NCBI GenBank assembly: GCA_018889975.1
Contig: CP076546.1
Coordinates: 1,488,001-1,552,000, forward strand
Source of the DNA: Bacillus sp. NP157
Lineage (GTDB): Bacteria > Pseudomonadota > Gammaproteobacteria > Xanthomonadales > Rhodanobacteraceae
DNA length: 64,000 nt
Direction of reading: 5' to 3'
In this document: in pieces, positions 19,164 to 57,634 of the stretch
Position numbering within the stretch: position 1 is the stretch's first letter
Layout of the letters: each line of letters opens with the position of its first letter
The notes under the pieces: model-generated
Told to the model about the DNA's origin: nothing
Databases searched by the model: none
Seen by the model: only the letters and a program-made list of their open reading frames with translations
Position numbers and translations under genes: made by a program

Positions 19164-19316
19164 ATGAAAGCCGACGGGAAGCTGCGGGATTCGAAGGACC
19201 AGGGGACGTGGGGTGGCGGGCTGGCCGGTCTGGCCGGGTCCGCTATCGCGTACCTGGCCATTCGGCCTATGCCTTCGCGTCGCTCCATCAGCAGCGCGGG
19301 GCACGGCCATGAATGA
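19164..19316 (+). CDS. Possible 50-residue membrane peptide overlapping the NRPS-PKS start
   Basis: An ATG at 19164 preceded by GGGGGATCGC opens a 50-codon frame ending 8 bp inside the next gene. It begins [13 protein letters not shown] and has one hydrophobic helix, [17 protein letters not shown]. The overlap would allow translational coupling to the NRPS-PKS start at 19309. The rest of the 328-bp gap (18981-19308) holds only the terminator and the inverted repeat. The hydrophobic stretch could be chance in such G/C-rich sequence. Confidence 0.35.
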
Positions 19317-22300
19317 TGCGTTTCTCCCAGTCGACTCGTTCGATGCCACGGTGCACGGCCGCTTCGCGCGGGTCGCTGCCGAAGTTCCCGAACGGCTGGC
19401 CGTCGCCTCGGACGATCTTTCCCTGACCTATGCCGAACTGGATGCACGCAGCGATGCGGTGGCCCAGGGGTTGCGCGCTGCCGGCGTCGAACCGGGGGCG
19501 TATGTCGCGTTGTTGATGGAGCGTTCGGCGCTGGCGATCGTTGCGGTGTTCGGGGTGCTCAAGGCTGGGGCGGCCTATTTGCCGATCGATGGGAGCTGGC
19601 CTGCGGATCGCGTGGCGTTTGCGTTGCGGGATGCGGATGTGGCGGCGGTGATTGCGGATGAGCCTTCTTCGGTGGTTGGGGATGATGCGCCGGTTTTTGG
19701 GATGTCGGAGTTTGAGGCGTTGGGTGGGTGGGGTCGCGCGCAGGCGCGCTCCTACAACAGCGTGGGTGGGGATGAGCTGGCTTATGCGATGTATACGTCG
19801 GGGTCGACGGGTACGCCGAAGGGCGTGGAGATCCGGCATAAGTCGATCCTTCGCCTTGTCCTCAAATCCAGCTACATCGATTTCGATGCGCCGAAGATCC
19901 TGCATGCGGCGCCGCTGGGGTTCGATGCGTCCACCCTGGAGATCTTCGGGCCACTGCTGAATGGCGGTACCTGCGTGGTTTACCAGCAGCGCGTGCCCAC
20001 CGGTTGCGGTATCCGCCGCACGTTGGAGGCGCACGGTGCCGAGGTAGCGTGGCTCACGGCGGCGCTGTTCAACGCCATCGTCGACGACGATGCCAGCAAC
20101 CTCGCGGGCCTGCGCTGCATCCTCACCGGTGGCGAGGCCCTGTCGGTACCGCACGTGCGCAAGGCACTGGCGGCCTTGCCGGCCACCACGCTGATGAACG
20201 GCTACGGGCCGACCGAGTGCACCACGTTCACCACCACCTATCGCATCCCGCACGAGCTGGCGGACGACGCCGGCGCGATTCCCATTGGCATGCCCATCGG
20301 CGAGACCTCGCTGCATGTGTGGGACGAGAACCGCCAGCCGGTAGTCGATGGCGAGATCGGTGAGCTGTATATCGGTGGCACGGGCGTGGCGCGGGGGTAT
20401 CTGAATCGGCCGGAGCTTACGGCGGAGCGCTTCGTGGCTTCCGAGCATGGGACGCTGTATCGCACGGGTGACCTGGTGCGGTTCCTGCCGGATGGAAATC
20501 TTGCCTTTATCGGGCGGGCCGATGGGCAGGTGAAGATTCGTGGGTATCGGATCGAGACGGGTGAGGTGGAGTTTGCGTTGCGGGCGCTGGCCGGGATTGC
20601 GGCGGCTGCGGTGATTGCCCGGGAGGATCAGCCGGGTGATAAGCGGTTGGTGGCTTATTACGTGGTGGGGGATCGCGCGGACGGTCGCACGGACGGTCGC
20701 GCGCAGGCGCGCTCCTACAGGGATGCGTTGTTGGCCTCGTTGCCGGAATACATGGTGCCTACCGCCTGGGTGCGGATGGAGGCACTGCCGATCAATGCCA
20801 ATGGCAAGCTGGATCGCAAGGCGCTGCCGGCCCCGGACCGTGCACGGCCGGAACTGGCCGCGCCCTTCGTCGCCGCGCGCGGTAACGTCGAGCTTGTCCT
20901 TTGCACCGTCTTCGCGGAAACCCTCGGCGTGGAACGCGTCGGCCGCGAAGACAACTTCTTCGACCTCGGCGGTAACTCGCTGCTGGCCACGCGCGCCATG
21001 GCGCGCATCCATGCCGAGCTCTCCGCCACCCCTACCCTCGTCGGCTTTTTCGCGGAGCCGACCCCGGCCGCGGTCGCGGCCACGATCGAAGGGCGCGCCA
21101 CCCGCCAGGCGTTGGCAGGGCGGCTGGCGAGTGGCGCGCAGGCAGCGGGCGAGCCGGTGGCGATCATCGCCATGGCCGGCCGCTTCCCCGGTGCCCCGGA
21201 CGTGGAAACCTTCTGGGACAACCTGTGCGAAGGCCGCGAGTCCATTCGCTTCTTCGCCCCAGAGGAACTCGATCCCGCCGTGCCGGCCTCCGACCGCGAC
21301 GACCCGGGCTATGTGTTCGCCCGCGGCATCGTCGACAACGTCGGCGATTTCGATGCGCCATTCTTCGGCATGTCGCCGCGCGAAGCCGAGCTGACCGACC
21401 CGCAGCAGCGGCTGTTCATGGAGCTTTGCTGGGAGTGCATGGAGCGCGCCGGTTACGTGCCCGACGGCCAGGACACGCCGGTGGGGGTGTTCGGCGGCAT
21501 GCACAACGCCACCTATTACCAGAAGCACATCAGCGGCCGCCCCGATCTCATCGAGAAGCTCGGCGCCTTCCAGGTGATGCTCGGTAACGAGAAGGATTAC
21601 GTCGCCACCCGCGTGGCGCACAAGCTCAACCTCACCGGCCCGGCGATCAGCGTCAACACCGCCTGCTCGACCTCACTGGTGGCCATCGCCCAAGCGTTCG
21701 ACGCGCTACGCGCGGGCCGCTGCAACATGGCCCTGGCCGGCGGCGCGTCCATCGCCTGCCCGCCGAACAGTGGCTACATCGCCCAGGAAGGCTCGATGCT
21801 CTCGCCGGACGGCCACACCCGCACGTTCGACGTGAACGCGCAGGGCACGGTGTTCAGCGATGGCGCGGCCGTTGTGCTGCTCAAGCGCCTTTCCGACGCG
21901 CTGCGCGACGGCGATCCCATCTACGCGACGATCCGCGGCGCGGCGATCAACAACGATGGCGGCGTCAAGGCGAGCTTCACCGCGCCGAACGCCGCCGGCC
22001 AGGCCGCGGTGATCACCATGGCGCTGGACAACGCGGGCGTCGAAGCCCGCGACATCTCCTACGTCGAAGCGCATGGCACGGCCACGCCGCTGGGCGATCC
22101 GATCGAAATCGAGGGTCTCACCCAGGCGTTTCGCCAGACCACGGCCGATAGCGGCTTCTGTGCGATCGGTTCGCTGAAGAGCAATGTCGGCCACCTGGTG
22201 ATGGCGGCCGGCGCGGCCGGCGTGATCAAGACCGCACTGGCGATGACCGAGCGCCGCCTGCCGCCGTCGCTGCACTTCACCGCACCGAACCCGCGGTTGA

Positions 22301-25300
22301 ACCTCGATGCCTCGCCGTTCGTCGTCAACGATACGCTCCGGCCCTGGCAGAGCGCCGGCCCGCTGCTTGCCGGCGTCAGTTCGTTCGGCGTGGGTGGCAC
22401 CAATGCCCACGTCATCCTCGAGGAAGCCCCGTCACGCACGCCGTCGGATGCCGCCACGGGCGCCCAGCTGCTCACGCTGTCCGCACGCACGCCGGCCGCC
22501 CTCGCCGCCGCGGCCGCACGCCTGGCCGACCACCTGGCGATGCATCCGGACGGCAACCTGGCCGATACCGCGTTCACCCTCGCACGCGGCCGCAAGGCCT
22601 TCGGCCAGCGCACGCATGTCGTGGCCGCGTCCGCCGCCGACGCCGAGGAGCGCCTGCGCGACATCGCCGCCGCCGCGATCTGCCACACCAGCAGCAATCC
22701 GGCACCGGGTGTCGTCTTCCTGTTCCCGGGCCAGGGCTCGCAGTACGCCGGCATGGGCCGTGAGCTGCATGCCACCGAACCGGTGTTCCGCACGGCGATC
22801 GACGAGGTCGCCAACGCGCTGCGCGACGAACTCGGCTTCGACCTGCGTGAGCGGATGTTCGATGACGATGCCGAGGCGCTGAAGGCCACCGAGCTCACCC
22901 AGCCGGCCACCTTCGCCATCGAATACGCCCTCGCCCGCCTGTGGATGAGCCTGGGCGTGCAGCCGGTGGCGATGATCGGGCACAGCGTCGGCGAATTCAC
23001 CGCCGCCGTGCTGGCCGGGGTGATGCCGCTGGCCGATGCCGCCCGCCTGGTCGCACGCCGTGGCCGCCTCATGCAGGCGCTGCCTTCGGGTGCCATGCTT
23101 TCCGTTCGCCTGGGGGCCGCCGAACTGCGGGCGCGACTCCCGGGTGCTTTGTCTCTCGCCGCCGAGAACGCACCGAACGCCTCGGTCGCCTCCGGTACCC
23201 ACGAAGAAATCGAGGCCTTCCGCCTGGCCCTCGACGCCGACGGCGTCGCCTGCCGCCTGCTGCATACCTCGCACGCCTTCCACTCGGCGATGATGGATCC
23301 GGTGCTGGAGGCGTTCCGCGCCGAAGTCGCCGGCATCGCGTTGCAGGCACCGACGCTGCCGATCGTTTCCACCGCCACCGGGTTGCCGCTTACCGACGGT
23401 GAAGCTACCTCGGCGGAGTACTGGACCCACCACCTGCGCCACACCGTGCGCTTCTCGCCGGCCCTGCTGCATACGCTCGAAGAATCGACCCTCGCCTTCG
23501 TCGAAGTCGGCCCGCGCGGCAGCCTGACCCAGCTTGGCCGCCAGCATGCACAGGCGCGCGGCCGGACGTTCATTGCCAGCCTGGGTGACAACGCTGGTGA
23601 AGAACGCGCGGCGCTGTTGAACGCCGCAGGTGCCCTGTGGGCGGCTGGCGTGGCAGTCGAGGTGGATGCGTTCGACCACCGCGAGCAGCGCCGCCGGGTG
23701 CGCCTGCCGACGTATCCGTTCGAGCGGAAGCGGCATTGGGTCGAGGCGCGGGTGGCGGCTTCGGTGACTTCCATTGCTGCGGCGTTGCCGTTGGTGGGGG
23801 CCGTGTCGCAGCCGATGCCGGTGTCGCAGGTTGCCGCCGATGGCATCGGCGGATCGCGCGCGGGGCGCGCTCCTACAGGGGAGCCCACCGTATCTGAAAC
23901 CCTTTCTCTTTTGCCTCAGTCCGTGGAGCAGCCCATGCCCCTGTCCAACCGCCCGCAGCGTCTCGTGACCGAACTCGTCGCCCTGTTCGAGGATGTATCG
24001 GGCACCGAACTGGAAAACATCGACCCCGGCGCGAACTTCGTGGAACTGGGCCTGGATTCGCTGTCGCTGACGCAGGTTGCCTTGCAACTGCAGAAGACCT
24101 ACGCACTGAAGATCACCTTCCGCGAACTGATGGATGGCTGCTCTTCGTTCGAGCGCCTCGCGGCGCATATCGATCGTCTCCTGCCGGCGGATACCGCGCC
24201 GGCAGCACCCGTGGCCGCGCCGGTCCCAACCGCGCCGGCCATGGCGGCAGTACCGGTCGCAACTAGCGTGGCCGGTGGTGGCTTGATCCAGGACGTGATC
24301 GCGCAGCAGATGCAGATCATGCGGGACCAGCTGGCGTTGCTGTCGGGTGCTGCCGCACCGGCAGCGATCCCCTCCCCAGTGATGGCGGCCGATGCCGTGG
24401 CCTTGGCCGACGCCAACGCCAACACCCCGTCACCCGCCCCCGCTTTTGTAGGAGCGCGCCCCGCGCGCGATCCGGCGCCCCAGGCGGCGGCCGCCACACC
24501 GTCTCCCGCCCAATCCGCCCAATCCCCCGCCGCCAACGACGCCGAAGAAGCCGCCCTCGCCCACACCACCTACGACGTCAAGAAAGCCTTCGGCGCCATC
24601 GCCCGCATCCACAGCGGCGGCACCGACCTCAGTGCCCGCCAGCGCGCACGCCTGGACGCTTTCATGCGCCGCTACATCGAGCGCACGAAAGCCTCCAAGG
24701 CCTACACCACCGAACATCGCGGCCACCTCGCCGACCCGCGCGTGGTCAACGGCTTCCGCCCGCTGCTGAAGGAAATCATCTACCAGATCGTGGTCGAGCG
24801 CTCGAAGGGCGCGAAGGTCTGGGACCTGGACGGCAACGAGTACGTCGACGCCCTCAACGGCTTCGGCATGAACCTGTTCGGCTGGCAGCCCGACTTCGTG
24901 CTCGACGCCGTACGCGCGCAGCTCGACGCCGGCTACGAAATCGGCCCGCAGCATCCGCTGGCCGGCACCGTGGCGAAGCAGGTCTGCGAGCTCACCGGCT
25001 TCGACCGCGCCGCCCTGTGCAACACCGGCTCCGAAGCCGTGATGGGCTGCGTCCGCGTCGCCCGCACCGTCACCGGCCGCGACACTCTGGTGATCTTCAC
25101 CGGCTCCTACCACGGCATCTTCGACGAAGTGATCGTGCGCGGCACGAAGAAGCTGAAGTCAGTTCCCGCGGCGCCAGGAATCCTGCGCAACACCTCCGAA
25201 CACGTGCTGGTGCTCGACTACGGCACACCCGAATCGCTGCAGATCATCCGCGAGCGTGCCCATGAGATCGCCGCGGTGCTGGTCGAGCCCGTGCAGAGCC

Positions 25301-26109
25301 GCCGTCCGGACTTCCAGCCGGTGGAGTTCCTGCAGGAGCTGCGTGCGATCACCGAAGAAGCCGGCTCCCTGCTGATCTTCGACGAAGTGGTCACCGGTTT
25401 CCGCTCGCATCCGCGCGGCGCGCAGCACGTTCTGGGCATCGATGCGGACATGGCCTCGTATGGCAAGGTCGTCGGCGGAGGCTTCCCGATCGGCGTCATC
25501 GCCGGCAAGCGTCGCTTCATGGACGCGCTGGACGGCGGCGACTGGCGCTTCGGGGATGCCTCCGTGCCGACGGTCGGCGTCACCTATTTCGCCGGCACCT
25601 TCGTCCGCCACCCCCTGGCCCTGGCCGCCGCACACGCGGTGCTCACCCACCTGGCCGAGCATGGCGAAGGCCTGCAGGCAGCGCTCAACGCGCGGGTCAC
25701 CGCGATGGCCCAGGAGATGAACGACTTCTGCGCGAGCGTCGGCGCGCCGCTGAAGATCGTCCACTTCGCCTCGGTGTGGAAAACCACCTTCACCGAAGAC
25801 CATCCGCTGCAGGAGCTGGTGTTCGCGATGATGCGCAGCCGCGGCATCCACATCCTCGACAACTTCCCCTGCTTCTTCACCACCGCGCACCGCGAGGAAG
25901 ATTTCGCCGCCATCGTCGGTGCGTTCCGCGAATCGATCCTTGAAATGCAAGAAGCGGAATTCCTGCCGCGCTACCGCGAAGCACCCGCCTTCGACGCCAG
26001 CCACCCGCCGATCCCCGGTGCGCGGCTGGGCAAGGACCCCGACGGCCAGCCCGCGTGGTTCGTTCCCAACCCGGATGCGCCGGGCAAGTACCTGAGGGTT
26101 ACCGCATGA
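19309..26109 (+). CDS. Hybrid NRPS-PKS, A-T-KS-AT-ACP-aminotransferase (2266 aa)
   Basis: The ATG at 19309 begins the first adenylation sequence; the ORF is open further upstream but unrelated there. Order: A domain (~10-520) with [11 protein letters not shown] at 162, NGYGPTE near 300, YRTGDL near 383 and [10 protein letters not shown] near 503; T domain ([13 protein letters not shown] near 548); KS (~615-1040) with NTACSTS near 785, [12 protein letters not shown] and KSNVGHLV, all three catalytic residues present; AT (~1125-1450) with GHSVGE near 1224 and HAFHS, typical of malonyl-CoA; ACP (ELGLDSLS near 1583); class III aminotransferase (~1770-2250) with its PLP lysine in SYGKVVGGG near 2053. 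There is no KR. Expected chemistry: load an amino acid, add malonate, convert the beta-keto group to an amine. A hand-aligned pocket D-A-L-W-L-G-G-T-F resembles valine codes as I recall them (low certainty). Four in-frame REP elements lie in linkers. Confidence 0.93.
19732..19755 (-). repeat. REP element 1, in frame in the A domain
   Basis: On the plus strand it reads GGTCGCGCGC...GCGCGCTCCTAC; the minus strand starts GTAGGAGC. It encodes GRAQARSY in the variable loop before the A3 core motif. It is identical to element 2 over all 24 bases and is in the same reading frame (963 bp apart). Confidence 0.88.
20695..20718 (-). repeat. REP element 2, in frame in the A domain C-terminal part
   Basis: A 24-base copy identical to element 1, again encoding GRAQARSY, in the loop before the LPEYMVP segment. 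Just upstream, ACGGTCGC is repeated, giving DGRTDGRA. Confidence 0.88.
23852..23876 (-). repeat. REP element 3, in frame between AT and ACP
   Basis: A 25-base palindrome (GATCGCGCGC...GCGCGCTCCTAC on the plus strand) encoding SRAGRAPT in the linker before the ACP. It is the exact reverse complement of element 4. Confidence 0.88.
24448..24472 (+). repeat. REP element 4, in frame between ACP and aminotransferase
   Basis: On the plus strand it begins GTAGGAGCGCGC and ends GCGCGCGATC. It encodes [10 protein letters not shown] in an Ala/Pro-rich linker. With element 3 it forms an inverted pair around the ACP-coding segment. Confidence 0.88.
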
Positions 26110-32512: not shown

Positions 32513-33643
32513 ATGACACACATCGCATGGTTTGCCTGCTGGGGATCGGCCCTGCTGCTGGTCCACATGTTCGCCGGCTATCCCGCACTGATGTGGCTGG
32601 GGGCGCGCATGCGCCCGCGGCCCGTGCAGCGCAAGGCGTGGCTGCCCACCGTGAGCATCGTGGTCGCGGTGCACGACGGCGAGCGTTACGTGCGCGCGAA
32701 GCTGGCCAACCTGCAGGGGCTGGATTACCCGCCCGAGCTGATCGACATCGTGCTCGCCTGCGATGGCTGCCACGACCACAGCGTGTCGATCGCCCGTCGT
32801 TGCAACGATGCGCGGGTGACCGTGCTCGACTTCCCCAACCGGCGCGGCAAGGCCGCCTGCCTCAACGACGCCGTCGCGCTGACCCGCGGCGAAGTGCTGC
32901 TGATGACGGACATCCGCCAGCGCCTGTCGCCCAGCGCACTGAAGGAGCTGGTCGCCAACCTCGCCGATCCGGAGGTGGGTGCGGTCGGTGGCGAGCTGCA
33001 CATGGAAAACGTCCGCACGGGCTTCGCCCAGGGCGTGGACTTCTACTGGCGCTACGAAAAGATGATCCGCCATGCGGAGAGTGAAACCGGCTCGACGGTG
33101 GGCGTCAGTGGCGCGCTCTATGCGATGCGCCGGTCGCTGTTCCAGCCGCTGCCCGCGGGCACCGTGCTGGACGACGTGCTGGTGCCGATGCGCGTCGCGG
33201 CGCAGGGCAAGCGCGTGGTGTTCGAACCGCGCGCCATGGCCTGGGACCAGCCGTCGCAGGAGCCGGAGGCCGAACGCCGGCGCAAGATCCGCACCCTGGC
33301 CGGCAACTTCCAGCTGATCCAGCTGGCGCCGTGGCTGTTGTTGCCCACGCGCAATCCGCTCTGGTTCCGCTTCGTCAGCCACAAGATGCTGCGGCTGCTC
33401 GCACCGTGGCTGATCGTCGCGCTGACCCTCAGCACCGGCTTCCTGTTCAATCGCCACCCGCTGTATGCGCTGGCCTTCTGCGGACTGGGCGCCGGCGCCC
33501 TGCTGGTCGGCCTCGCCCGCCTGCGCCCGCGACTGGGCCGCTGGTTGCCGGCGCGCATCGCCGTCGCCTTCTTCTACCTCAACCTTTTCGCGGCACAGGC
33601 ACTGCTTGCCTTCGCCCGTAATCGCAGGCTGCACCTATGGTGA
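32513..33643 (+). CDS. Membrane glycosyltransferase, family 2
   Basis: 376 residues from the ATG at 32513, after a G-rich ribosome site (GGGGGAGACGTC). One N-terminal membrane helix precedes the GT-A domain (WLPTVSIVVAVHDGERYV near 45). Further features are CDGCHDHS, NRRGKAACLNDAV and LLMTDIRQRLS, where the usual DxD is replaced by TDIRQ. Two to three C-terminal membrane helices follow. The topology resembles PgaC/IcaA-type processive or EPS transferases that use a nucleotide sugar at the inner membrane. It follows the NRPS by 29 bp and overlaps the next gene, so it opens the sugar half of the operon. Confidence 0.87.
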   Translation: MTHIAWFACWGSALLLVHMFAGYPALMWLGARMRPRPVQRKAWLPTVSIVVAVHDGERYVRAKLANLQGLDYPPELIDIVLACDGCHDHSVSIARRCNDARVTVLDFPNRRGKAACLNDAVALTRGEVLLMTDIRQRLSPSALKELVANLADPEVGAVGGELHMENVRTGFAQGVDFYWRYEKMIRHAESETGSTVGVSGALYAMRRSLFQPLPAGTVLDDVLVPMRVAAQGKRVVFEPRAMAWDQPSQEPEAERRRKIRTLAGNFQLIQLAPWLLLPTRNPLWFRFVSHKMLRLLAPWLIVALTLSTGFLFNRHPLYALAFCGLGAGALLVGLARLRPRLGRWLPARIAVAFFYLNLFAAQALLAFARNRRLHLW

Positions 33644-34746
33644 TCGATATGAACCAACGTGGCGCCCCAGGCATTCGTGGCCGGCTCGGCGAGCTGTGCT
33701 ATTCCAGCGGCCTGCTGCATTCCCTGCAGCGGGTGCGGGCGTGGTGGCAGCGCGACCTGCGCATCCTCGCCTACCACCGCGTGATGCCGTTGCCGGACCC
33801 GGATACCTACGAGTTCGACATGGAGCTGATCAGCACGCCGCCGGACGAGTTCCGCGACCAGATGCGCAGGCTGAAGCGCTACTTCCGGCCGATGCGGCTG
33901 ACCGACGTGGTCGCTGCGCTCGACGCCGGCGAAGCCCTGCCGCCCGACACGGTGGCGGTGACCTTCGACGACGGCTACGACGACAACTATCGGATCGCCG
34001 CGCCGATCCTCGACGAGGTCGGCGTGCCGGCCACGTTCTTCGTCTCCACCGGGCATATCGACAGCGGCCGGCCGTATTCCTACGACTGGCTGGTGCACAT
34101 GATCCTGGTGACGCGTGCGCCGCGGTTGCTCTTGCCCGAACTGGGCATCGACATCGCGCTGCCCGCCGAACGCGCCCTGCGCCGGCGCATCGCGGGCAAC
34201 GTGCTGCTGCGCATGAAGTGGCTGGACGCCCACGGCCAGAGCGCGATGACCGAGCGCCTGGAAGTGGAATGGAACATGCCGTCCGCCGGCGCCCGCCCGA
34301 TCGACTGCCGCCCGATGACCTGGGACCAGGCCCGCGAGATGGAATCGGCGGGCATGGAGTTCGGCTCGCATGGCGTGCACCACCGGATGCTCGCCCGCCT
34401 TCCACTCGCCGACATGGAAGCGGAGATCCTCGAGTCCAAGCGCACGCTCGACCGTGAGCTGCGCAATCCGGCACTGCTGATGTCCTACCCGGTCGGCGGC
34501 GACCGCGCCTACAACGAGGCGGTGATCGCCGCGACGCGCAACGCCGGCTTCCAGCTTGCCTGCAGCTACGTGTGCGGGACCAATCCCGAGCCCTCGGTCA
34601 ACCGTTATTCGCTGTACCGGCTGCCGGTGGAAGCGAACATGGGCCCGGGCTGGTTCGCCGCCATGCTGGCCCTGCCACGCCTGATGAGCTACCCCACCGC
34701 GGCCCACGAAGCACAGGGACCGCAGGAGCAGGCATGTTCCCCCTGA
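33637..34746 (+). CDS. Polysaccharide deacetylase-family protein (NodB fold)
   Basis: 369 residues; its start overlaps the end of the glycosyltransferase by 7 bp, with an alternative ATG at 33649. The NodB motif 1 is TFDDGYDDN near residue 110, and the metal-binding motif is SHGVHHRML near 247, giving the D-H-H triad of carbohydrate esterase family 4. No signal peptide is seen; the N-terminus carries a basic LRILAYHRV segment usual in EPS-linked deacetylases. Likely role: removing acetyl groups from amino sugars or their precursors during EPS maturation. A second, shorter NodB protein lies at 39626. Confidence 0.88.
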   Translation: MVIDMNQRGAPGIRGRLGELCYSSGLLHSLQRVRAWWQRDLRILAYHRVMPLPDPDTYEFDMELISTPPDEFRDQMRRLKRYFRPMRLTDVVAALDAGEALPPDTVAVTFDDGYDDNYRIAAPILDEVGVPATFFVSTGHIDSGRPYSYDWLVHMILVTRAPRLLLPELGIDIALPAERALRRRIAGNVLLRMKWLDAHGQSAMTERLEVEWNMPSAGARPIDCRPMTWDQAREMESAGMEFGSHGVHHRMLARLPLADMEAEILESKRTLDRELRNPALLMSYPVGGDRAYNEAVIAATRNAGFQLACSYVCGTNPEPSVNRYSLYRLPVEANMGPGWFAAMLALPRLMSYPTAAHEAQGPQEQACSP

Positions 34747-35993
34747 TCCTCCTGTACGTCGTCCTCACGATCATCCGGCCGCAGGATTACATCCCCGGCC
34801 TGGATACCGTGCCGATCCTCCCGGCCGTGCTCGGCCTCGCCTTCCTGGCCTGGCTGCCGTCGCGGGAGAAAACCTTCGCCGCGCCGCAGTTCGTGATCCT
34901 GCCGGCCTTCCTTGCCGTGCTGATGGTCTCGCAGGTGGCCAACGGCTGGACCGGCGGCGCCCTCGACGAACTGGCCCACTTCGGCCCGGTGGTGATCGCC
35001 TTCTTCATCCTCGGCGCCGCCTGCACCACCCAGCGGCGCGTGCGCGTGGCCATGGCGGTGATGGTGGCCTGTGCCGTCGTGCTGGCCCTGCACGGCGTCG
35101 AGCAGGCCAAGACCGGCATGGGCTGGACCGGCATCCCGATCGGCGAAGGCAACCGCATCCAGTACGTGGGCATCTTCAACGATCCCAACGACCTTGGCCT
35201 GCTGTTCGCCGCCACCCTGCCGATGGCGATGTTCCTCGGCCGCCGCGGCGCCCCGGGACGCTGGCTGTGGCTCAGCGGCGCCCTGCTGCTGGTCTACGGC
35301 ACCTACCTGACCAACTCGCGCGGCGCCATGCTGGCGGTGCTGGTCGTAGCCGGCTGCTACATCTGGTACCGCAAGGGCATCGCCGTGGCCGGCGTGCTCG
35401 GCGTGATCGGCCTGGCCGCCATGAAGCTGCTTTCTTCGCGCATGGACGAGCTGGACGCCGGCGAGGAGTCGGCCGCCGGCCGTGTCGACGCCTGGTACGC
35501 GGGCCTGGAAATGTTCCGCGACAGCCCGCTGTTTGGCGTGGGCCCGGGCAATTTCACCGAGTACAACGAGCTCACCGCGCATAACTCGTTCGTCCTGGTG
35601 CTGGCCGAGACCGGCTTCGCGGGCTTCGTCCTCTGGCTCGCCTTTGTAGGCTATGGCTTCTGGATGATGTTGACGATCGTCCGGCATCCGCATACTGCCG
35701 ACAACGATACGGGGCGCGAGGCGGAATGGGCGATGGAACGGCAACTGGCCCTGACCCTGCTGCTTTCGCTCTGTGGCCTGTTCGCCGCGGCGTTTTTCCT
35801 CAGCCGCAGCTACATGGTGGTGCTGTACCTGATCGCCGCCATGGTCGCCGGCCACTACGTCGGCGCCAAACAGCGCTGGCCCGAACTGCGCGCCTTCCAC
35901 CTGTCCACGGATGGCTGGCGTTGGGTACCGGCGGCGTTCTGCAGCGTCGCCGGCCTGTTCGTGCTGGTTGCCGTCCTGCTGCGCACCCAATGA
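34734..35993 (+). CDS. O-antigen ligase/polymerase-like membrane protein
   Basis: 419 residues from the ATG at 34734, 13 bp inside the preceding gene. About ten to twelve hydrophobic segments span the length. The large periplasmic loop holds the pattern GVGPGNF ... AHNSFVLVLAETGF, which is the hallmark of the Wzy/WaaL C-terminal region, and an earlier IFNDPNDLGL segment is also typical. The start MFPLILLYVVLTIIRPQDY suggests the exosortase-A-associated ligase group (TIGR03097) as I recall it. Likely role: polymerising or ligating the lipid-linked EPS unit at the periplasmic face. Confidence 0.9.
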   Translation: MFPLILLYVVLTIIRPQDYIPGLDTVPILPAVLGLAFLAWLPSREKTFAAPQFVILPAFLAVLMVSQVANGWTGGALDELAHFGPVVIAFFILGAACTTQRRVRVAMAVMVACAVVLALHGVEQAKTGMGWTGIPIGEGNRIQYVGIFNDPNDLGLLFAATLPMAMFLGRRGAPGRWLWLSGALLLVYGTYLTNSRGAMLAVLVVAGCYIWYRKGIAVAGVLGVIGLAAMKLLSSRMDELDAGEESAAGRVDAWYAGLEMFRDSPLFGVGPGNFTEYNELTAHNSFVLVLAETGFAGFVLWLAFVGYGFWMMLTIVRHPHTADNDTGREAEWAMERQLALTLLLSLCGLFAAAFFLSRSYMVVLYLIAAMVAGHYVGAKQRWPELRAFHLSTDGWRWVPAAFCSVAGLFVLVAVLLRTQ

Positions 35994-37345
35994 GCCTCTA
36001 CGCGCCCCTGCTGCGCAACGTGCTTTGGCCGGCCTACGAAGGTGGGCTGCGCCGGCGCGACACCCCACGTTACCTGCGTGAGTACGCACGCACGCAGTGG
36101 CTGTCCGCCGACGAGATCGCCCAGCTCCAGTTCAAGCGCGTCAAGCGCCTGCTCGACTGGTGCCAGCGGGAAGTGCCGTTCTACCGCGACCGCTGGGCGG
36201 CGATGGGCCTGTCACCGGCCGATATCCGCGAGCCGTCCGACATCGCCCTGCTGCCCCTGCTGACCAAGGCCGACATCCGCCAGCACGCCGAGGCGCTGAA
36301 GGCGACGTCGCTGAAAGACAGCCTGGCCTACAAGGCGACCGGCGGTTCGACGGGTGAACCGCTGCGCTTCGGTTACACCCGGGAAAGCAACGATCGCCGT
36401 GTGGCGGTGATGTGGCGCGGCTACGGCTGGGCCGGCTCGCGCATGGGCCGGCGGACGCTGTTCCTGTGGGGCGGTGCCGTGGGCGAGCCGACCGCGGCGC
36501 ATCGGTTCAAGGATCGCGTCTACAACGCGGTGTTCGCGCGCAAGCTGCTCAACAGCTTCGCGATGACCGAAGGCAACCTGGCTTCCTACGCCGATGCGAT
36601 CGACCGCTACCGCCCGGAAGTGATCGTCGCCTACGTTGGCCCGCTGGTTCGCCTCGCCCAGTACCTGCTGGCCGAGGGCCGTCGCGTGGCTCGCCCCGTA
36701 TCGATCATCGGCGCCGCCGAAGCCCTGCATCCGTTCCAGCGCGAACTGATCGAGAAGGCCTTCGGCGCGCCGGCCTTCAACACGTATGGATGCCGCGAGT
36801 TCATGCTGATCGCGTCCGAATGCGAACACCGCGACGGCCTGCACGTGAACGCCGACCACCTGCTGGTCGAGACGCTCGGCGTCGATGGCCAGCCGACCCA
36901 CAAGGGCAGCGGCGAAGTGGCCATCACCGACCTGTCCAACCGCGGCATGCCGTTCATCCGTTACGTCAACGGCGACATGGCCACGCACGGCCACGGCCGC
37001 TGCGCCTGTGGCCGCGGCCTGCCGCTGCTGGCCAGCGTCGACGGCCGCAAGCTCGACGCGATCCGCACGCCGGCCGGCCACGTGCTGCCCGGCGAGTTCT
37101 TCCCGCACATGCTGAAGGACGTGCCCGGGCTGGCTCGCTTCCAGCTCGTGCAGAAAGAACTGGACCGGCTCGACCTGTCGATCGTCCGCGGCGAAGGCTT
37201 CGACGACGCGTCGCTTGCCTACATCCAGCGCGAAGTTTCCAAGGTACTCGGCGACAGTGCACGACTGCACTGCCACTTCGTCGACGACATCCCCCTCACC
37301 CGGAGCGGCAAGCTCCGCGTCACCGTCTCGGAGCTGTCGTCGTGA
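35990..37345 (+). CDS. CapK/phenylacetate-CoA-ligase-like adenylate-forming enzyme
   Basis: 451 residues; the ATG overlaps the previous stop (ATGA). The adenylate-forming P-loop is KATGGSTGEPLRF near residue 115. Later features are NTYGCREF (the YGxxE-like position), RYVNGDMA (near the TGD position) and CxCGRGLPLL, which fits the PaaK/CapK group. These enzymes activate a carboxylic acid as acyl-AMP; in capsule and EPS loci they are thought to prepare acyl or amino-acyl decorations. With an NRPS-PKS in the same locus, this could be the enzyme linking its product to sugar or another carrier, but that is inference. Confidence 0.85.
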   Translation: MSLYAPLLRNVLWPAYEGGLRRRDTPRYLREYARTQWLSADEIAQLQFKRVKRLLDWCQREVPFYRDRWAAMGLSPADIREPSDIALLPLLTKADIRQHAEALKATSLKDSLAYKATGGSTGEPLRFGYTRESNDRRVAVMWRGYGWAGSRMGRRTLFLWGGAVGEPTAAHRFKDRVYNAVFARKLLNSFAMTEGNLASYADAIDRYRPEVIVAYVGPLVRLAQYLLAEGRRVARPVSIIGAAEALHPFQRELIEKAFGAPAFNTYGCREFMLIASECEHRDGLHVNADHLLVETLGVDGQPTHKGSGEVAITDLSNRGMPFIRYVNGDMATHGHGRCACGRGLPLLASVDGRKLDAIRTPAGHVLPGEFFPHMLKDVPGLARFQLVQKELDRLDLSIVRGEGFDDASLAYIQREVSKVLGDSARLHCHFVDDIPLTRSGKLRVTVSELSS

Positions 37346-38460
37346 ACATCACCCATGTGGTCGAAAACCTGAATCGCGGCGGCCTGGAGCGGATGGTCAT
37401 CGACCTGGTGACCCAGCAGTTCCGCGAAGGTCACAAGGTGCAGGTGGTCTGCCTGTTCGAGCGCGGCGCCATGGCGACCGAGCTCGAGATCAAGGGCATC
37501 CCTGTGCGCGCCTGCGAGAAGCGCACCGGCTTCGACCTGCGTGCGATCGGTCGCGCACGTGGGTACATCGCCGGACATCGCACCGAGGTGCTGCATACGC
37601 ATAACGCGGTGGCGCACTACCAGGCCGTGCTCGCCACGGCGGGGCTGGGCATCCGCCAGGTGGTCAACACCCGCCACGGCATGGGCGCCACGCGCAAGCC
37701 AGGTCGCCGCGAGTGGCTGTTCCGCCGCTCGATGGCGGCGACCGATACCGTGGTCGCCGTGTGCGAAGCGGCCCGGCGCGACGCGGTGGATCGCGGCATG
37801 TTCCAGGCGCGCAAGTGCTGCGTGGTGCCCAACGGGATCCATCTGGACGGCTTCGACGTCGCGTCCGACACCATGCATGAGCGGCTCGCGCGGATCATCA
37901 ACGTGCCCCCGCGCACGCGGATCATCGGCACCGTGGGCCGGCTCAACTGGGCGAAGGACCAGGCCAGCCTGATCCGCGCGTTCCGTGCGGTACGCCACCA
38001 CCGGCGCGACACCGTGCTCGTGCTGATCGGCGACGGCGAGTTGCGCGAGACCCTGCGTGCGTGTGCCTTCGACGAAGGCATCGCCGGCTGCGTGCACTTC
38101 CTCGGCGATCGCAGTGACGTGCGCGAGCTCCTGCAGGGGCTCGACCTGTTCGTGCTGTCGTCGGTCACCGAAGGCTATTCGATGGCGCTGCTCGAAGCCT
38201 GCGCGACCGGCCTGCCGATCGTCGCCACCGACGTCGGCGGCAATGCCGAGATCGTGCGCGACCAGGCCACCGGCCGTCTGGTGCCCGCCTGCGACGCGCC
38301 GGCGCTGGCCGATGCGATGCTCGAGATGTTGCACGCCTCGCAGCAGGCCTCGGCCTTCGGTCGCGCCGCGCGCAGCTGGGTCGAACAGCACGGCTCGCTG
38401 CAGGCCATGGCCGCGCGTTATACGCGGCTGTATTTCGGGCACATGGACGCGCCGGCATGA
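37342..38460 (+). CDS. Glycosyltransferase, family 4 (exosortase-A-associated type)
   Basis: 372 residues; the GTG start at 37342 overlaps the previous stop (GTGA) and is chosen because the protein then begins MNITHVVENLNRGGLERMV, the classic GT-B N-terminus. The donor-binding half contains IIGTVGRLNWAKDQ near residue 195 and SSVTEGYSMALLEACATGLP near 275, with the E-x7-E retaining motif. It adds one sugar to the lipid-linked EPS unit on the cytoplasmic side. It resembles the transferase TIGR03088 of PEP-CTERM/EpsH loci as I recall it. Confidence 0.9.
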   Translation: MNITHVVENLNRGGLERMVIDLVTQQFREGHKVQVVCLFERGAMATELEIKGIPVRACEKRTGFDLRAIGRARGYIAGHRTEVLHTHNAVAHYQAVLATAGLGIRQVVNTRHGMGATRKPGRREWLFRRSMAATDTVVAVCEAARRDAVDRGMFQARKCCVVPNGIHLDGFDVASDTMHERLARIINVPPRTRIIGTVGRLNWAKDQASLIRAFRAVRHHRRDTVLVLIGDGELRETLRACAFDEGIAGCVHFLGDRSDVRELLQGLDLFVLSSVTEGYSMALLEACATGLPIVATDVGGNAEIVRDQATGRLVPACDAPALADAMLEMLHASQQASAFGRAARSWVEQHGSLQAMAARYTRLYFGHMDAPA

Positions 38461-39629
38461 AGATCCTGGTGCTCACCAACCTGTTTCCCACGCCGTGGGA
38501 TCCGCGCCGTGGGGCGTTCAATCGCCAGCAGTTCCAGCGGCTGGGCGAGCGCCACGACGTGGACGTGCTCACCGCCGTGGATTTCCGCGAGCGGATGGCC
38601 GGGGCGAAGGGCCAGGTGCATGTGCCGAACGTCAAACGCGACCACTTCACCTTTTACCATCCGCCGGGTATCGGCCGCTTCCTCAATGCCTTGTGCTACG
38701 TCGCCTGCGTGATGTGGCAGCGCGGCCGCGAACTGCGCCGCGCCAATTACGACGTGGTGCTCGGCAGCTGGGCGTTTCCGGATGGCGTGGCCGCGGCGTG
38801 GATCGCGCGCCTGCTGGGCGTGCCGTACGCAGTGAAGGTGCACGGCAGCGACCTCAACGTGCAGGCGAACGCGCGGCTGCGGCGGATGCAGATCCGCCAC
38901 TCGCTGCGCGGTGCGGGTGCGGTGCTGGCGGTGAGCAAGGCGCTGGCACAGAAAGCCATCGACATTGGCGCACGCCCGGATGCCGTCGAGACGGTCTACA
39001 ACGGCGTCGACGGTAAGCTGTTCCGCCGTGGCAACCGTGCGGCCGCCCGCGAACGGCTGGGCCTGCCGCTCGACGTGCCGCTGGTGCTGTACGTCGGCAA
39101 CCTGAAGGTGAGCAAGGGCTGCATGGACCTGATCGACGCCTTCCCGTCACTGGCGAAGCAGCGTCGCGATGCGCGGCTGTACTTCGTCGGCGATGGCCCG
39201 GACTTCACGACCCTGGAAGACCGTGCGGCTTCCCTGTGTTGCGCATCGGCCGTGCACTTCGCCGGCCCGGTCGGCCATGCCGCCCTGCCTGACTGGTTCC
39301 GCGCCGCCGACCTGCTGTGCCTGCCCAGCCATAACGAAGGCGTGCCGAACGTGGTGCTGGAAGCCATGGCCTGCGGTACGCCCGTGGTCGCGACCTCGGT
39401 CGGCGGCATCCCCGAAGTGGTGCCCACCTTCGCCGGGATCCTCGTGCCGGCCCACCACCCCGACCTCCTCGCCCGCGCGCTGGCCGACATGCTCGACCGC
39501 CACGTCGACGCCGAGGCCATCGCCGCGCATGCCACCAGCTTCCGCTGGGAAGACAACATCGACCGGCTGGAGCGGATGCTCGGCCGGGTTGCCGCCGGAG
39601 CCCCGGCCCACGTGAGTGCCAACGCATGA
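38457..39629 (+). CDS. Glycosyltransferase, family 4
   Basis: 390 residues, starting in an ATGA overlap. The GT-B fold is clear from the start MKILVLTNLFPTPWDPRRGA, with AVKVHGSDLN near residue 125, VLYVGNLKVSKG near 210, and SHNEGVPNVVLEAMACGTP near 285 (E-x7-E). The HGSD pattern and length are like TuaC/EpsF-type EPS transferases. It lies in a run of genes overlapping by 4 bp and is expected to act on the growing EPS unit. Confidence 0.9.
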   Translation: MKILVLTNLFPTPWDPRRGAFNRQQFQRLGERHDVDVLTAVDFRERMAGAKGQVHVPNVKRDHFTFYHPPGIGRFLNALCYVACVMWQRGRELRRANYDVVLGSWAFPDGVAAAWIARLLGVPYAVKVHGSDLNVQANARLRRMQIRHSLRGAGAVLAVSKALAQKAIDIGARPDAVETVYNGVDGKLFRRGNRAAARERLGLPLDVPLVLYVGNLKVSKGCMDLIDAFPSLAKQRRDARLYFVGDGPDFTTLEDRAASLCCASAVHFAGPVGHAALPDWFRAADLLCLPSHNEGVPNVVLEAMACGTPVVATSVGGIPEVVPTFAGILVPAHHPDLLARALADMLDRHVDAEAIAAHATSFRWEDNIDRLERMLGRVAAGAPAHVSANA

Positions 39630-40264
39630 TCCGCCGACCGAAGAAGCACGAACTGCTGGGCCTGCTGCCCGAACGCCTGCTGATGACGCGGGCGCGCGAC
39701 GACCATCGCTGCTATCTCAGCTTCGACGATGGCCCGGAGCCGGGCCATACGCCGAAACTGCTGGACGTGCTCGCCCGGCATGGCGTGAAGGCCAGCTTCT
39801 TCCTCGTCGGCGAGAAGATCGAGCAGTACCCGGAGATCGTCCAGCGGATCGTGGCCGAGGGGCACATGATCGGCAACCACTCCTATAGCCACTGGTCGTT
39901 CCGCAACATGAACCTGCGCGAGCAGCTGGACGAGGTGTATCGCACCGACGCCCTGCTGCGCCTGTTCGACGATCGCAACCACCACCGGATGCGTCCGCCG
40001 CATGGCTACGTGGGTGCGCAGCTGTTGCTGCACTTCGCCCGGCGCAAGCGCAGCTTCGTCTACTGGTCGTACGACAGCATGGATTACCAGGACCAGCCGG
40101 TCGAACGGCTGATCGACCGGCTCCGCACCGATCCGCCCGCGGCGGGTGACATCGTGCTGATGCACGACGACAGCGACAAGGCCGCCGAGGCCCTGGACGT
40201 GATGCTGCCCGAGTGGCTGGCCGGCGGCATGCGCTTCGACGCCCTGCCGGGGACCCACGCGTGA
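39626..40264 (+). CDS. Short polysaccharide deacetylase (NodB domain)
   Basis: 212 residues, ATGA overlap with the previous gene. It is a minimal carbohydrate esterase 4 domain: YLSFDDGPEPGHTPKLLD near residue 30 (motif 1), GNHSYSHWSF near 85 (HSxxH metal motif), MRPPHGY near 122 and LMHDDS near 173. There is no signal peptide or membrane segment, so it probably acts on a cytoplasmic or lipid-linked intermediate, unless it is exported by an unseen route. It is shorter than the other NodB protein in the locus and closer to the canonical chitooligosaccharide deacetylase pattern. Confidence 0.9.
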   Translation: MIRRPKKHELLGLLPERLLMTRARDDHRCYLSFDDGPEPGHTPKLLDVLARHGVKASFFLVGEKIEQYPEIVQRIVAEGHMIGNHSYSHWSFRNMNLREQLDEVYRTDALLRLFDDRNHHRMRPPHGYVGAQLLLHFARRKRSFVYWSYDSMDYQDQPVERLIDRLRTDPPAAGDIVLMHDDSDKAAEALDVMLPEWLAGGMRFDALPGTHA

Positions 40265-54327: not shown

Positions 54328-55871
54328 GGACTGGCCTTGGCCGCCGCGGGCGGCACGATGGCGAGCACGCGCGAGAGCGCACGCCCGGGCGGACCCAGCC
54401 GTCGGCTGATGCCCGCCATCAACTGGAGGTCCCCGGCCGACCAGTAACGCACCCAGGCGCTACCCGGCACGTAGATGGCGACGAAGGCTAGGGCACCGAG
54501 GATGAAGCCGAGCCGCGACGGCGTCGCCTCGGTGGCGGCCCATGCCGCCAGCGTCGCGACGACGCCAACGCCGAACAGGCGCAGCATGGCCGCCCAGGGC
54601 ATCCCGCCCTGGGTCGCCTTGCGCAGGTAGTGCACGGCCAGGGCCATCTCGACGATGCGCGTGGCGGCATAGGTACACACGGCACCGGCAAGGCCGAACG
54701 GCGGCACCAGCAGCCCGCCGAGCACGGCGTTGGCGACCAGCGCCACCACCGCGATGCGGACGCGATCGTCCTGCCGGTCGACCACCGTCTGGAACGCGGC
54801 GATGCCATTGCCGATCAGCAGCAAGCCGCCGAGCACCAGCGTGGCCTCGATCGCCGGGATCGCATCCACGTAGCGCGTGCCGTACATCAGCCGCACGATC
54901 TCCGGCGTCGTCACCACGCCGATACCGGCGATCGCGATGCCCACGGCCCAGTAGAACCGCGTGGCTTCGGAAAGGAAGCGCGCCGCCTTCGCCGTGCCGC
55001 TCTCGCCGTAGGTCTTGGCCATGTAGGGCAGCAGCGTCGAGGTAAGCCCCACCGAGAACAGCTGCACGGCACCGCGTGTCAGCGTGCCGGCGATGGCGAA
55101 GTAACCCACCGCCACCGAGCCGGTGAAGGTGTTGAGCAGGAACACCTCGATGGTGCCGGTGCGGAACGAGCCCATCAGCACCAGCATGGCCGTGAGCTTC
55201 AGGTGCCGGTTCACCCGGGTCGTCATCGCCGCGGGCACCACCCCCGGCGCATACGGCCGGCACAGTCGCCGGTACATGATCCGGTTGATCAGGTTGAGCA
55301 AGAGGCAGGCGATGGCGAACAGGGCGACGAAGTCGAGCAGGCCCGCATGGGCAAACATCGCGCCGAGCACGAACAGCATGCCGGCGATGCCGCCGATGAC
55401 GGTCGCGACCGCCTCCGGCTCGAATCGCTCCTGCCCCTTGCCGATCGCGACCAGCATCGCGTAGTTCGCCTTGGCGACCACGGCGACGACGACCAGCAGC
55501 ATGATCGGCAGCAGCGACTGGTCCCACTCAGCGGGCCGGAAGACCACCGCGACCAACAGGAACAGGCCGATCACCACCAGCGAACTCCAGCCCTGGATGC
55601 GCGAGAAACGCGCCGCCAGGCTCGATGCGAGCGCGGGGTCACCCATGCCATCCGCCTCGGCGATGAACTTGGTCGACGAGGTGGTCAACGCATGGTTCGA
55701 ACAGACGATCAGCCAGCCGCACAGCCACACGGTGAAGGCATACCGGCCGAAATCCGCCGGCCCGAGCGAACGCGCGATCCACACGCTCATCAACAGGCCA
55801 AGCGCGTATTCGATGTAGGTCGACACGGTGACGATGCCGACGCTGCGAAGGACGTCGATCCGACGGCTCAT
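54324..55871 (-). CDS. Oligosaccharide flippase (Wzx/MATE-like)
   Basis: 515 residues from the ATG at 55871, in an ATGA overlap with the upstream gene; the ORF runs on to 55961 without similarity. The protein is almost entirely membrane segments, about 14, with the polysaccharide-synthase N-terminus STYIEYALGLLMSVWIARSLGPADFGRYAF (two adjacent blocks) typical of Wzx. A second half-repeat begins near residue 290. Role: moving the undecaprenyl-linked EPS unit across the inner membrane before polymerisation by the ligase-like protein at 34734. Confidence 0.9.
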   Translation of the reverse strand: MSRRIDVLRSVGIVTVSTYIEYALGLLMSVWIARSLGPADFGRYAFTVWLCGWLIVCSNHALTTSSTKFIAEADGMGDPALASSLAARFSRIQGWSSLVVIGLFLLVAVVFRPAEWDQSLLPIMLLVVVAVVAKANYAMLVAIGKGQERFEPEAVATVIGGIAGMLFVLGAMFAHAGLLDFVALFAIACLLLNLINRIMYRRLCRPYAPGVVPAAMTTRVNRHLKLTAMLVLMGSFRTGTIEVFLLNTFTGSVAVGYFAIAGTLTRGAVQLFSVGLTSTLLPYMAKTYGESGTAKAARFLSEATRFYWAVGIAIAGIGVVTTPEIVRLMYGTRYVDAIPAIEATLVLGGLLLIGNGIAAFQTVVDRQDDRVRIAVVALVANAVLGGLLVPPFGLAGAVCTYAATRIVEMALAVHYLRKATQGGMPWAAMLRLFGVGVVATLAAWAATEATPSRLGFILGALAFVAIYVPGSAWVRYWSAGDLQLMAGISRRLGPPGRALSRVLAIVPPAAAKASP

Positions 55872-57634
55872 GGCGAATGCCCCTCGGCCGACGCACCACG
55901 CGACGCCACGGGGTTGGCGCCCGGCTTGAGCCCTGCCCCCGCCGGCTGCGCCATCATCCACTGCGCGACGCCCGCGCCGCGATTATTCCAGTTGAAGCGG
56001 CGCAGCGTGTCCGAAATTGCCGCGCACGACGGGCTGTAGGAATGGGCGATCGCCTCGAAGCGTTTTTGCAGCGCCGCGGCACGGGCCGGGTCGGTCTCGA
56101 AATAACGCGCTGCGGCCACCGGCAAGCCGAGCTCCACGGTATGCCCGTCGCTATACCAGCCCTCGCTCTCCTGGATCTTCGCGATCGCCGCGGCCGGCGC
56201 GTGCGAGGACGACCAGTACCAGGCGATCTGCCCGTCCGGGCCGGAACAATCGTTGCGCCAGTTATGCGGCGAGACCAGCTCCTTCGACGCGATCCAACCG
56301 TAGCGTTCGAGGTAACGGCCAAAGTCGACGATCATCGGCGGGATCCGCGCATCGCCGGTCACCAGCCACGCGTGCCATAGGCCGTCGATGATGTTCTCGG
56401 ACATCCACGGCGAGGCACCGCGTACGTCGTCGGTGCCATGCGGGTCGTTCTCGTGGACGTTCCAGCTGTTCCGCCAGGAACCGTCGTCGCCGAGGCCATC
56501 GGGATTCTTGCGCTGGTGGTCGTAGAGCCAGCCCACGCGCTGCTCGACGCGTTCGCGGTCGCGCTTGGCACCCGTGAGTTCGTAGGCAGCGACGGTCTCG
56601 ATCAGGCCAAGGCCGGCGAGCCGCTCGGTGAAGTAGTCGTTCGGTGCGCGGTACGCGCCGGGCGTGGTGTTCCAGCCACCGCTCGCCCACAGGTCGGCCA
56701 TCTTCGACACCGTGTCGGCGTCGTGCATGCTGTCGTCGCCGGCGAGGCCCATGGCCAGCAGGATCGGTTCGATGTAGACGTATTTCACGTCGCAGGGCTT
56801 TTCGTCGGGCAGCCAGCCACCGGCGCAGGACGGGCTGGCCGGGATGCCGTCGCGCTTGATGCCGGCCATGTACCAGCGATAGCTCTCTTCGGCCGCCGCG
56901 AGGTAGTCGGCGCGGCCGGTGCGAACGTAGGCCTTGAACAGGGTCGAGGGCCGGTCGAATAGCCACGCGGTGGTGTCCTTCACCGGCAGCTCGCGGGCCC
57001 AGTGGAACTGGGCGTCGACATAGGCGGCGTAGGGTTCGTTCTTGCCGGCGACGCTTTGCGGGCCGGCGATGAGGGAGGCGGTGAGCCAGTCGGGGGTTAG
57101 GGTGGCTATGGCGGCTGGGGTGTTTTTTATCAGGCCTTGGGGGTAGGGCCAGGAGGGGGGGCATGGGGGGTTTGAGGGATTTCGGTCGCGCGCGGGCGCG
57201 CTCCTACAGGGGCTGACACCGGTGGTGGTGAAGTAGTAGGTGCCTTGGGTGGCGCGGAACTGGGCACGGACGGCGCGGATGCTGCCGTCGCGGAAGTGCC
57301 AGGTCAGCATGGGCTTGATCGCCGCGGGGACGTCGTTGCCGTATGCATCGACGATGTGCACGTCGTCCGCGTTTTTCAGCATGCCCGGCGGAAACGGGAT
57401 ACCCACCGACACCGGCAGTGCATCGCCCTGCCCGGCCAACCGCTTGACCTCGATTTTCTGGATCGCCGGTGGCAGGCCATCGGCCGCGGCGGCGTCGGGT
57501 CCGATCACCGCGCCCAGGGCCAGCAGGCAGGCGATCAAAAACAGGAAACGCCGGGTCAGTGCACCGGCGGCCTCGCCTGCGTCGCGACCGGCGACGCACG
57601 AGCGATGGAAAGCGCGGGCAGCCTTGCGGGTCAT
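55868..57634 (-). CDS. Exported glycan-active enzyme candidate with a REP element inside
   Basis: 588 residues; the ATG at 57634 overlaps the galE stop. A long basic N-terminus precedes the signal segment LTRRFLFLIACLLALGAVIG, with likely cleavage near DAAAA. Residues about 55-130 (DALPVSVGIPFPPGML, WHFRDGSIRAVRAQF) resemble the N-terminal RIFT-barrel of PcRGLX/YetA-type enzymes. The rest is alpha-helical with repeated W/Y-rich turns (AAEESYRWYMAGIK, HAWLVTGDARIPPM), suggesting an alpha/alpha-toroid lyase or hydrolase. Between the two parts, REP element 5 and C-rich DNA encode CRSAPARDR and a Pro-rich run. A periplasmic EPS-trimming lyase is my best guess. Confidence 0.7.
   Translation of the reverse strand: MTRKAARAFHRSCVAGRDAGEAAGALTRRFLFLIACLLALGAVIGPDAAAADGLPPAIQKIEVKRLAGQGDALPVSVGIPFPPGMLKNADDVHIVDAYGNDVPAAIKPMLTWHFRDGSIRAVRAQFRATQGTYYFTTTGVSPCRSAPARDRNPSNPPCPPSWPYPQGLIKNTPAAIATLTPDWLTASLIAGPQSVAGKNEPYAAYVDAQFHWARELPVKDTTAWLFDRPSTLFKAYVRTGRADYLAAAEESYRWYMAGIKRDGIPASPSCAGGWLPDEKPCDVKYVYIEPILLAMGLAGDDSMHDADTVSKMADLWASGGWNTTPGAYRAPNDYFTERLAGLGLIETVAAYELTGAKRDRERVEQRVGWLYDHQRKNPDGLGDDGSWRNSWNVHENDPHGTDDVRGASPWMSENIIDGLWHAWLVTGDARIPPMIVDFGRYLERYGWIASKELVSPHNWRNDCSGPDGQIAWYWSSSHAPAAAIAKIQESEGWYSDGHTVELGLPVAAARYFETDPARAAALQKRFEAIAHSYSPSCAAISDTLRRFNWNNRGAGVAQWMMAQPAGAGLKPGANPVASRGASAEGHSP
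57184..57207 (-). repeat. REP element 5, in frame in the exported enzyme
   Basis: Plus strand GGTCGCGCGC...GCGCGCTCCTAC, differing from elements 1 and 2 at one base. It encodes CRSAPARDR on the minus strand, at the junction of the RIFT-like and toroid-like parts. Confidence 0.88.

Follow-up and report, generated by a model that had tools for sequence, protein, structure and literature searches.

The synthase gene and its REP copies

The window, by which we mean the whole 64,000-nt stretch of DNA analysed, spans positions 1,488,001-1,552,000 of the 4.875-Mb single-contig genome of Bacillus sp. NP157 (G000 in what follows), a genome of ~67% GC. The window contains an NRPS-PKS gene (19309..26109, + strand) whose likely start, by our own gene caller, is ATG 19309; the surrounding stop-free frame opens at GTG 19213 and runs to 26109. 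Pfam matches (PF00501, PF13193, PF00550 twice, PF00109/PF02801, PF00698 and PF00202) give the domain order A-PCP-KS-AT-ACP-aminotransferase (class III), and a two-module NRPS gene comes next. The closest orthologues are in Luteibacter species, and the gene is present in all 23 Luteibacter genomes searched (G000 and 22 others).

Four GTAG-type REPs of 24, 24, 25 and 25 nt lie in frame within this gene, and all are translated without a stop. Each carries the GTAG tag, followed by a short palindrome (GTAGGAGCGCGC..GCGCGCGAYC). Site 1 (19732..19755, - strand; GTAGGAGCGCGCCTGCGCGCGACC) is read as GRAQARSY in the A-domain loop preceding motif A3. Site 2 (20695..20718, - strand) has the identical sequence and reading, and occupies a loop of the C-terminal adenylation subdomain, between KRLVAYYV and a helix. 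Site 3 (23852..23876, - strand) is of the 25-nt class GTAGGAGCGCGCCCCGCGCGCGATC and is read as SRAGRAPT in the AT-ACP linker, while site 4 (24448..24472, + strand), of the same class in opposite orientation, is read as VGARPARDP in the ACP-aminotransferase linker. The initial annotation had reported these four copies, their different codon phases and their placement in variable loops or linkers, and all of this is confirmed: three reading frames are used, sites 1 and 2 sharing one. Placement of sites 1 and 2 in A-domain loops is based on alignment to solved A domains; against the solved linear gramicidin synthetase, site 2 corresponds to 8 additional residues, and site 1 lies within a gap-bearing, poorly conserved loop just upstream of motif A3.

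Sites 1 and 2 are identical direct repeats around the adenylation core, and sites 3 and 4 an identical inverted pair around the ACP. The nearest inverted pair among the four in-gene copies is 571 nt apart; we reserve the term REPIN for two inverted REPs ~20-120 nt apart. Chance expectation for the four elements in shuffled sequence is none. A fifth copy in the window (57184..57207, - strand) lies within an open frame of uncertain coding status. Cassette exchange of the adenylation core between the direct repeats of sites 1 and 2 was considered and rejected, the core being collinear and orthologous in alignments.

REP family and RAYT of the genome

The G000 genome has 157 exact copies of the REP, with none for the reversed-pattern control; a loose pattern gives 688 matches against 64 in its reversed control. 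When genes were called in the 1.89 Mb around the exact copies, 113 were intergenic, 30 lay across a gene edge and 14 were inside a called gene, although the calls are from our own gene caller and several of the 14 are 12-83 nt from a called gene end, where start and stop calls are least sure. The NRPS-PKS gene holds four exact copies and no other called gene more than one. The probability of at least four in this gene is 8e-5 for copies falling anywhere, and 7e-9 given 14 intragenic copies. This genome-wide count had been proposed as a check by the initial annotation. Equal frequency in all coding genes, which would have spoken against its proposal, is not what the count shows: 14 of 157 copies are inside genes, and four of these in one gene. 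A looser structural search yielded 420 REPs, of which 17 were deep within 14 genes: four in the NRPS-PKS gene and at most one in any other. In-frame REPs elsewhere give peptides of similar kinds: among them, a DUF3418 helicase protein has VGARPARDA in an Ala/Pro linker, an EcsC-like protein has VGAHPVRDP and an RlpA-like SPOR protein has GRSAPARDQ.

A single RAYT gene was found in G000 (NF047646 equivalog; score 138.7 bits, cut-off 80), and its 3.3-kb locus (L061) carries three exact copies of the REP of sites 1 and 2, which has a 22-nt core. The expectation that the elements are RAYT-associated and normally intergenic is upheld, both by the REPs flanking this gene and by the 113 of 157 copies between genes. 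The base preceding GTAG is T in 89% of G000 REPs, and inverted pairs in the REPIN form are common in the genome. Tag and palindrome, high copy number, a cognate RAYT flanked by the same REP and mainly intergenic placement identify the elements as GTAG REPs.

Sites 3 and 4, both of the 25-nt class, share the core GCGCGCCCCGCGCGC. Of seven 15-nt cores of this kind in the structural scan of G000, six were inside genes, against 11 of 413 other REPs. Such cores may be intragenic because one additional base aids in maintaining the frame, or they may be relics of an older class, surviving where deletion or replacement must respect the frame.

The same linkers across Luteibacter

All 21 complete orthologues were aligned. 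Intact REPs are present in the same linkers of 17; two genomes have only degenerate ones (G009 and G004) and two have none (G011 and G017). Luteibacter yeojuensis (G022), whose gene is split over two contigs, has four intact REPs in the same places and orientations, with mostly different arms. In control stretches of the same genes relaxed REP matches occurred in just 9 of 483. Site 4 is the richest: in G005, G006, G007, G010, G014, G018 and G021 an inverted head-to-head REP pair, the REPIN form, is translated as the ACP-aminotransferase linker. The orientation series - - - + recurs in G000, G001 and G022.

Details differ between clades. At site 1, G000, G001 and (in degenerate form) G009 have in common the codon position and the SY frame, while G014 and G018 use the LLQ frame. 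Offsets at site 2 vary between clades, and the native ARxLRD residues that follow the REP there are kept in G003, G008 and G022 and lost in G000, G001 and G009.

REP load is very uneven among Luteibacter genomes, with G009 and G017 at or below background by both patterns; among genomes of background load, in-gene REPs are only decayed (G009) or absent (G017). G011 has ~290 genome-wide pattern matches, yet none in its NRPS-PKS gene. In 400 kb of G021 there were 43 REPs, and three were deep inside genes, namely two in the NRPS-PKS orthologue and one in the adjoining NRPS gene; in G001 none of 30 further REPs tested lay inside a gene.

Scanning for the GTRGGAGC form alone, we found no such hairpin in the gene among the orthologues examined from Dyella, Rhodanobacter, Frateuria, Dokdonella, Pinirhizobacter, Lysobacter, Pseudoxanthomonas, Luteimonas and Variovorax. 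The proposal that the insertions became new peptide linkers is upheld; the condition named beforehand as refuting it, the same peptide in distant homologues from genomes without the repeat, finds no support in that scan.

In-gene arms and resident REP families

From species to species the in-gene REPs vary in their arms, which for the most part are those of REP families resident in the same genome. GTRGGAGCCGCTTCAGCGGCGA, with no copy in G000, has 519 copies in G014, 314 in G006, 237 in G010, 174 in G018 and 108 in G007, all of which bear it in the gene; G016 has 247 copies genome-wide and a degenerate form in the gene. A CTATAG family, likewise lacking in G000, has 417 copies in G021 and occurs twice in the gene of that genome. 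The CTTG-loop REP has 253 copies in G001, which bears it at sites 1 and 2. The core of site 3 is that of the REP adjoining the RAYT of G008.

A PF01797 gene was found in every Luteibacter genome except the incomplete G012; in G000 it is the RAYT gene described above. In 8 of 18 species the in-gene REP is identical to one flanking the RAYT, with 1.4 expected and none of 20000 shuffles as high, in a shuffling that ignores species relatedness. In the other 10 of 18 species it is not exactly equal to any RAYT-flanking REP, and so some in-gene copies may be relics of older classes.

Origin of the in-gene copies

REPs occupy four permissive places in this gene, two A-domain loops and two interdomain linkers, in most of the genus and always in frame. 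We take them, with a probability of about 80%, to be ordinary non-autonomous GTAG-class REPs moved by the host's single RAYT, whose frame-keeping insertions are tolerated and renewed by the resident class. REPs would be mobile in these genomes. Insertions into spacers that keep the frame would survive by merely lengthening a loop by ~8-30 residues, and others would be purged. An occupied linker would be renewed in each lineage by the active REP class, through insertion beside or in place of the old REP or through REP-to-REP conversion, so that positions and orientations would persist while arms change. Copies would decay once a genome loses its REP population, and a benefit to the enzyme need not be assumed. 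The alignments do not let conversion be told from fresh insertion at every site, the ARxLRD difference at site 2 being an example.

The REPs of each species could instead be wholly fresh, independent insertions into hot linkers, without renewal or conversion, which we regard as possible but rather doubtful. Such insertions would be expected to leave offsets and frames differing by clade, as at site 1, and differing offsets, as at site 2, and an intact REP without a surrounding synonymous change, as at site 1 of G007 and G020, is what a young insertion should look like. Harder to reconcile with independence is that G000, G001 and G009 share the site 1 junction and frame, yet G000 has its own loop variant there and G009 a decayed one, and that the orientations - - - + recur in G000, G001 and G022.

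Selection of the REPs for a benefit to the synthase, be it better linkers, hairpins for translational pausing or recombination points for domain swaps, is unlikely. The identical direct repeats flanking the adenylation core, the identical inverted pair flanking the ACP and the strong over-representation of the NRPS-PKS gene among intragenic copies are all suggestive of it, but the A-domain core between sites 1 and 2 aligns continuously with no sign of exchange, G011 with its many matches elsewhere has none in the gene, and arms, orientation and frame all vary. The initial annotation held that the linkers tolerate and perhaps select such insertions. Tolerance is supported, and repeatedly so across the genus, and is the likely reason for the insertions; selection finds no such support, given decay or absence in the REP-poor G009 and G017, free turnover of arms and the lack of any REP in the genes of G011 and G017.

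Two further readings, chance runs of codons in GC-rich DNA and convergence of low-complexity linkers, might draw on the Ala/Pro/Arg-rich linkers and the ~67% GC. The copy counts refute them: the elements match a 157-copy family exactly over 24-25 nt, where none would be expected, and the arms are matched to the species, which leaves these readings practically no probability.

With tolerated insertion and renewal as the preferred reading, the NRPS-PKS gene would record repeated DNA invasion of a working enzyme, a natural experiment over >20 species in which a single-strand transposase system puts DNA into a working megasynthase. It informs on which linkers accept new peptide, how often they do so, and how one REP class succeeds another at a given site. 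REP-bearing linkers are also candidate safe insertion points for synthase engineering.

Relation to known systems

A 2013 study (Di Nocera et al., PMC3733652) had already described in-frame intragenic GTAG REPs and TAG stop codons derived from GTAG, and had suggested that insertion into the flexible linkers of modular proteins is harmless; recB of X. campestris and X. oryzae has different REPs at about the same site (PMC3733652). Our copies resemble those intragenic GTAG/CGTC REPs in that GTAG palindromes are translated in frame inside genes. Many targets there are repair or replication genes, with up to two insertion sites noted per gene, whereas in Luteibacter a single biosynthetic gene carries as many as four inserts, genus-wide, from species-matched families and with whole REPINs as linker.

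Rickettsia palindromic elements (RPEs) are likewise palindromic repeats in frame in many protein genes, where they make new peptide segments. They are described as ~150 bp long (reviewed in PMC10969869), RPE-4 and RPE-6 corresponding to CGTC repeats (PMC3733652); the present elements are, in contrast, 24-25 nt GTAG REPs with a RAYT, mostly intergenic, and do not belong to the RPEs. The REPIN/RAYT systems of Pseudomonas and Stenotrophomonas (PMC3116915, PMC3686654, PMC8266576) share with ours the GT(A/G)G tag, the short stem-loop, inverted pairs, a RAYT with matching flanking REPs and change of class between related genomes (orthoswitch); REP class switching is described in PMC3686654. Those REPINs are treated as extragenic, whereas the in-gene copies here follow the class changes of their genomes. 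The basic idea of in-frame linker REPs is already known; what is new is that several linkers of one megasynthase have been colonised time and again by REPs matched to the species. A limited literature search found no report of such recurrent colonisation of one gene, nor of the synonymous halo described below.

A strand-specific synonymous halo

Single REPs are surrounded by a strand-specific synonymous halo of ~150 nt, in which the REP strand has A or C in place of G. Around site 1 (19534..19850) coding-strand C3 falls to 0.03 and G3 is ~0.6. Around site 2 (20359..20850) coding-strand third-position A+C is 0.10 upstream and 0.31 downstream, against 0.40-0.76 in REP-less orthologues. A synonymous halo also surrounds site 3 (23659..23883). 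Downstream of site 4 (24473..24640) the sign is reversed, with C3 of 0.7-0.8 and G3 of 0.1, because the REP of site 4 is on the + strand. In the flanks of sites 1, 2 and 4 of REP-bearing clades, G has given way to A or C at 50-81% of the synonymous positions that can be compared, and in control regions at 22%; in G018, G010 and G014 the G replacement is 75% at the REP-bearing site 1 and 25% at the REP-less site 2.

The effect extends through the G000 genome: near REPs, third positions on the REP strand are poorer in G and richer in C and A in genes of either direction relative to the REP, and the shift fades over 150-200 nt. Among 137 single REPs lying outside the NRPS-PKS gene, REP-strand G rises from 0.301 in the nearest 120 nt to 0.423 at 400-1000 nt (P = 4e-15). 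The two orientations relative to replication direction are alike, with the contig start taken as origin. The halo was not visible in G021, which offers just 10 single REPs.

Selection at the mRNA level was rejected as the cause, since the halo tracks the REP strand irrespective of gene direction. A pre-existing preference for such insertion targets is less likely, because REP-less orthologues have no halo at sites 1 and 2 and neither do the intact site 1 REPs of G007 and G020. DnaE2/ImuC was set aside as a source of the G-to-C changes; the available part of the Caulobacter work (PMC7198004) shows no such signature.

Published work on RAYT proteins shows binding and cleavage of the single REP strand but not of its inverted complement, the cut falling at C|T next to the REP (PMC8266576). 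Exposure and mutation may affect the strand opposite the REP. We tentatively suggest, as an idea that may well prove wrong, that at sites already occupied the RAYT works on the REP strand again and again and bares the complementary strand; gap repair would then overwrite the REP with the resident class (homing or conversion) and hypermutate the bared strand, so that over ~150-200 nt centred on the REP its own strand would lose G and the other strand C, both within working genes and next to them. If so, REPs would be local, strand-directed mutators of host genes. As a quantitative footprint, the halo could reveal REP processing in the cell, a difficult subject since REP movement is seldom observed directly. 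Around clustered inverted REPs the halo is weak, as cancelling would predict, and it is seen again around 12 single REPs of G001.

Composition around single REPs

Throughout the genome of the window (G000) and a second Luteibacter genome (G001), single REPs, short palindromic elements tagged with GTAG, stand at the centre of a strand-specific, synonymous compositional halo. Third codon positions on the REP strand carry C and A in place of G for ~150-200 nt either side of the element, and near single REPs in both genomes the direction of this skew is independent of gene orientation. Halo stretches in the window lie at 19534-19850, 20359-20850, 23659-23883 and 24473-24640. The flanks of the window's fifth REP (57184-57207), which falls within a minus-strand frame lacking Pfam domains (55868-57634), also appear A/C-rich on the REP strand.

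REPs in other genes and at gene ends

Further G000 genes contain a single in-frame REP (genome stretches L085:3-2636, L163:10851-11930, L168:4173-5324, L105:4716-7208, L103:12263-13702 and L114:10778-11935); the proteins are a DUF3418 helicase protein, EcsC-like, RlpA/SPOR and DUF2339 proteins, a photolyase and a methyltransferase, and in several the VGAR-type peptide lies within an Ala/Pro-rich linker. Another Luteibacter genome, G021, has an in-frame REP (GTGGGAGCCGGCTATGCCGGCGA, translated as VAGIAGSH) in the NRPS gene adjoining its synthase orthologue (G021:C1:769587-775989, L270).

In G000, many REPs reach a few bases into the end of a gene and are placed so that the TAG in their GTAG tag serves as its stop codon; this holds for most of the 30 exact copies crossing a gene edge. 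REP-supplied TAG stops have been reported in other species (PMC3733652).

Neighbouring genes

After the NRPS-PKS genes come polysaccharide genes (window 33637-40264: deacetylases, an O-antigen ligase-like Wzy_C and glycosyltransferases), an arrangement that suggests a joint or neighbouring exopolysaccharide locus.
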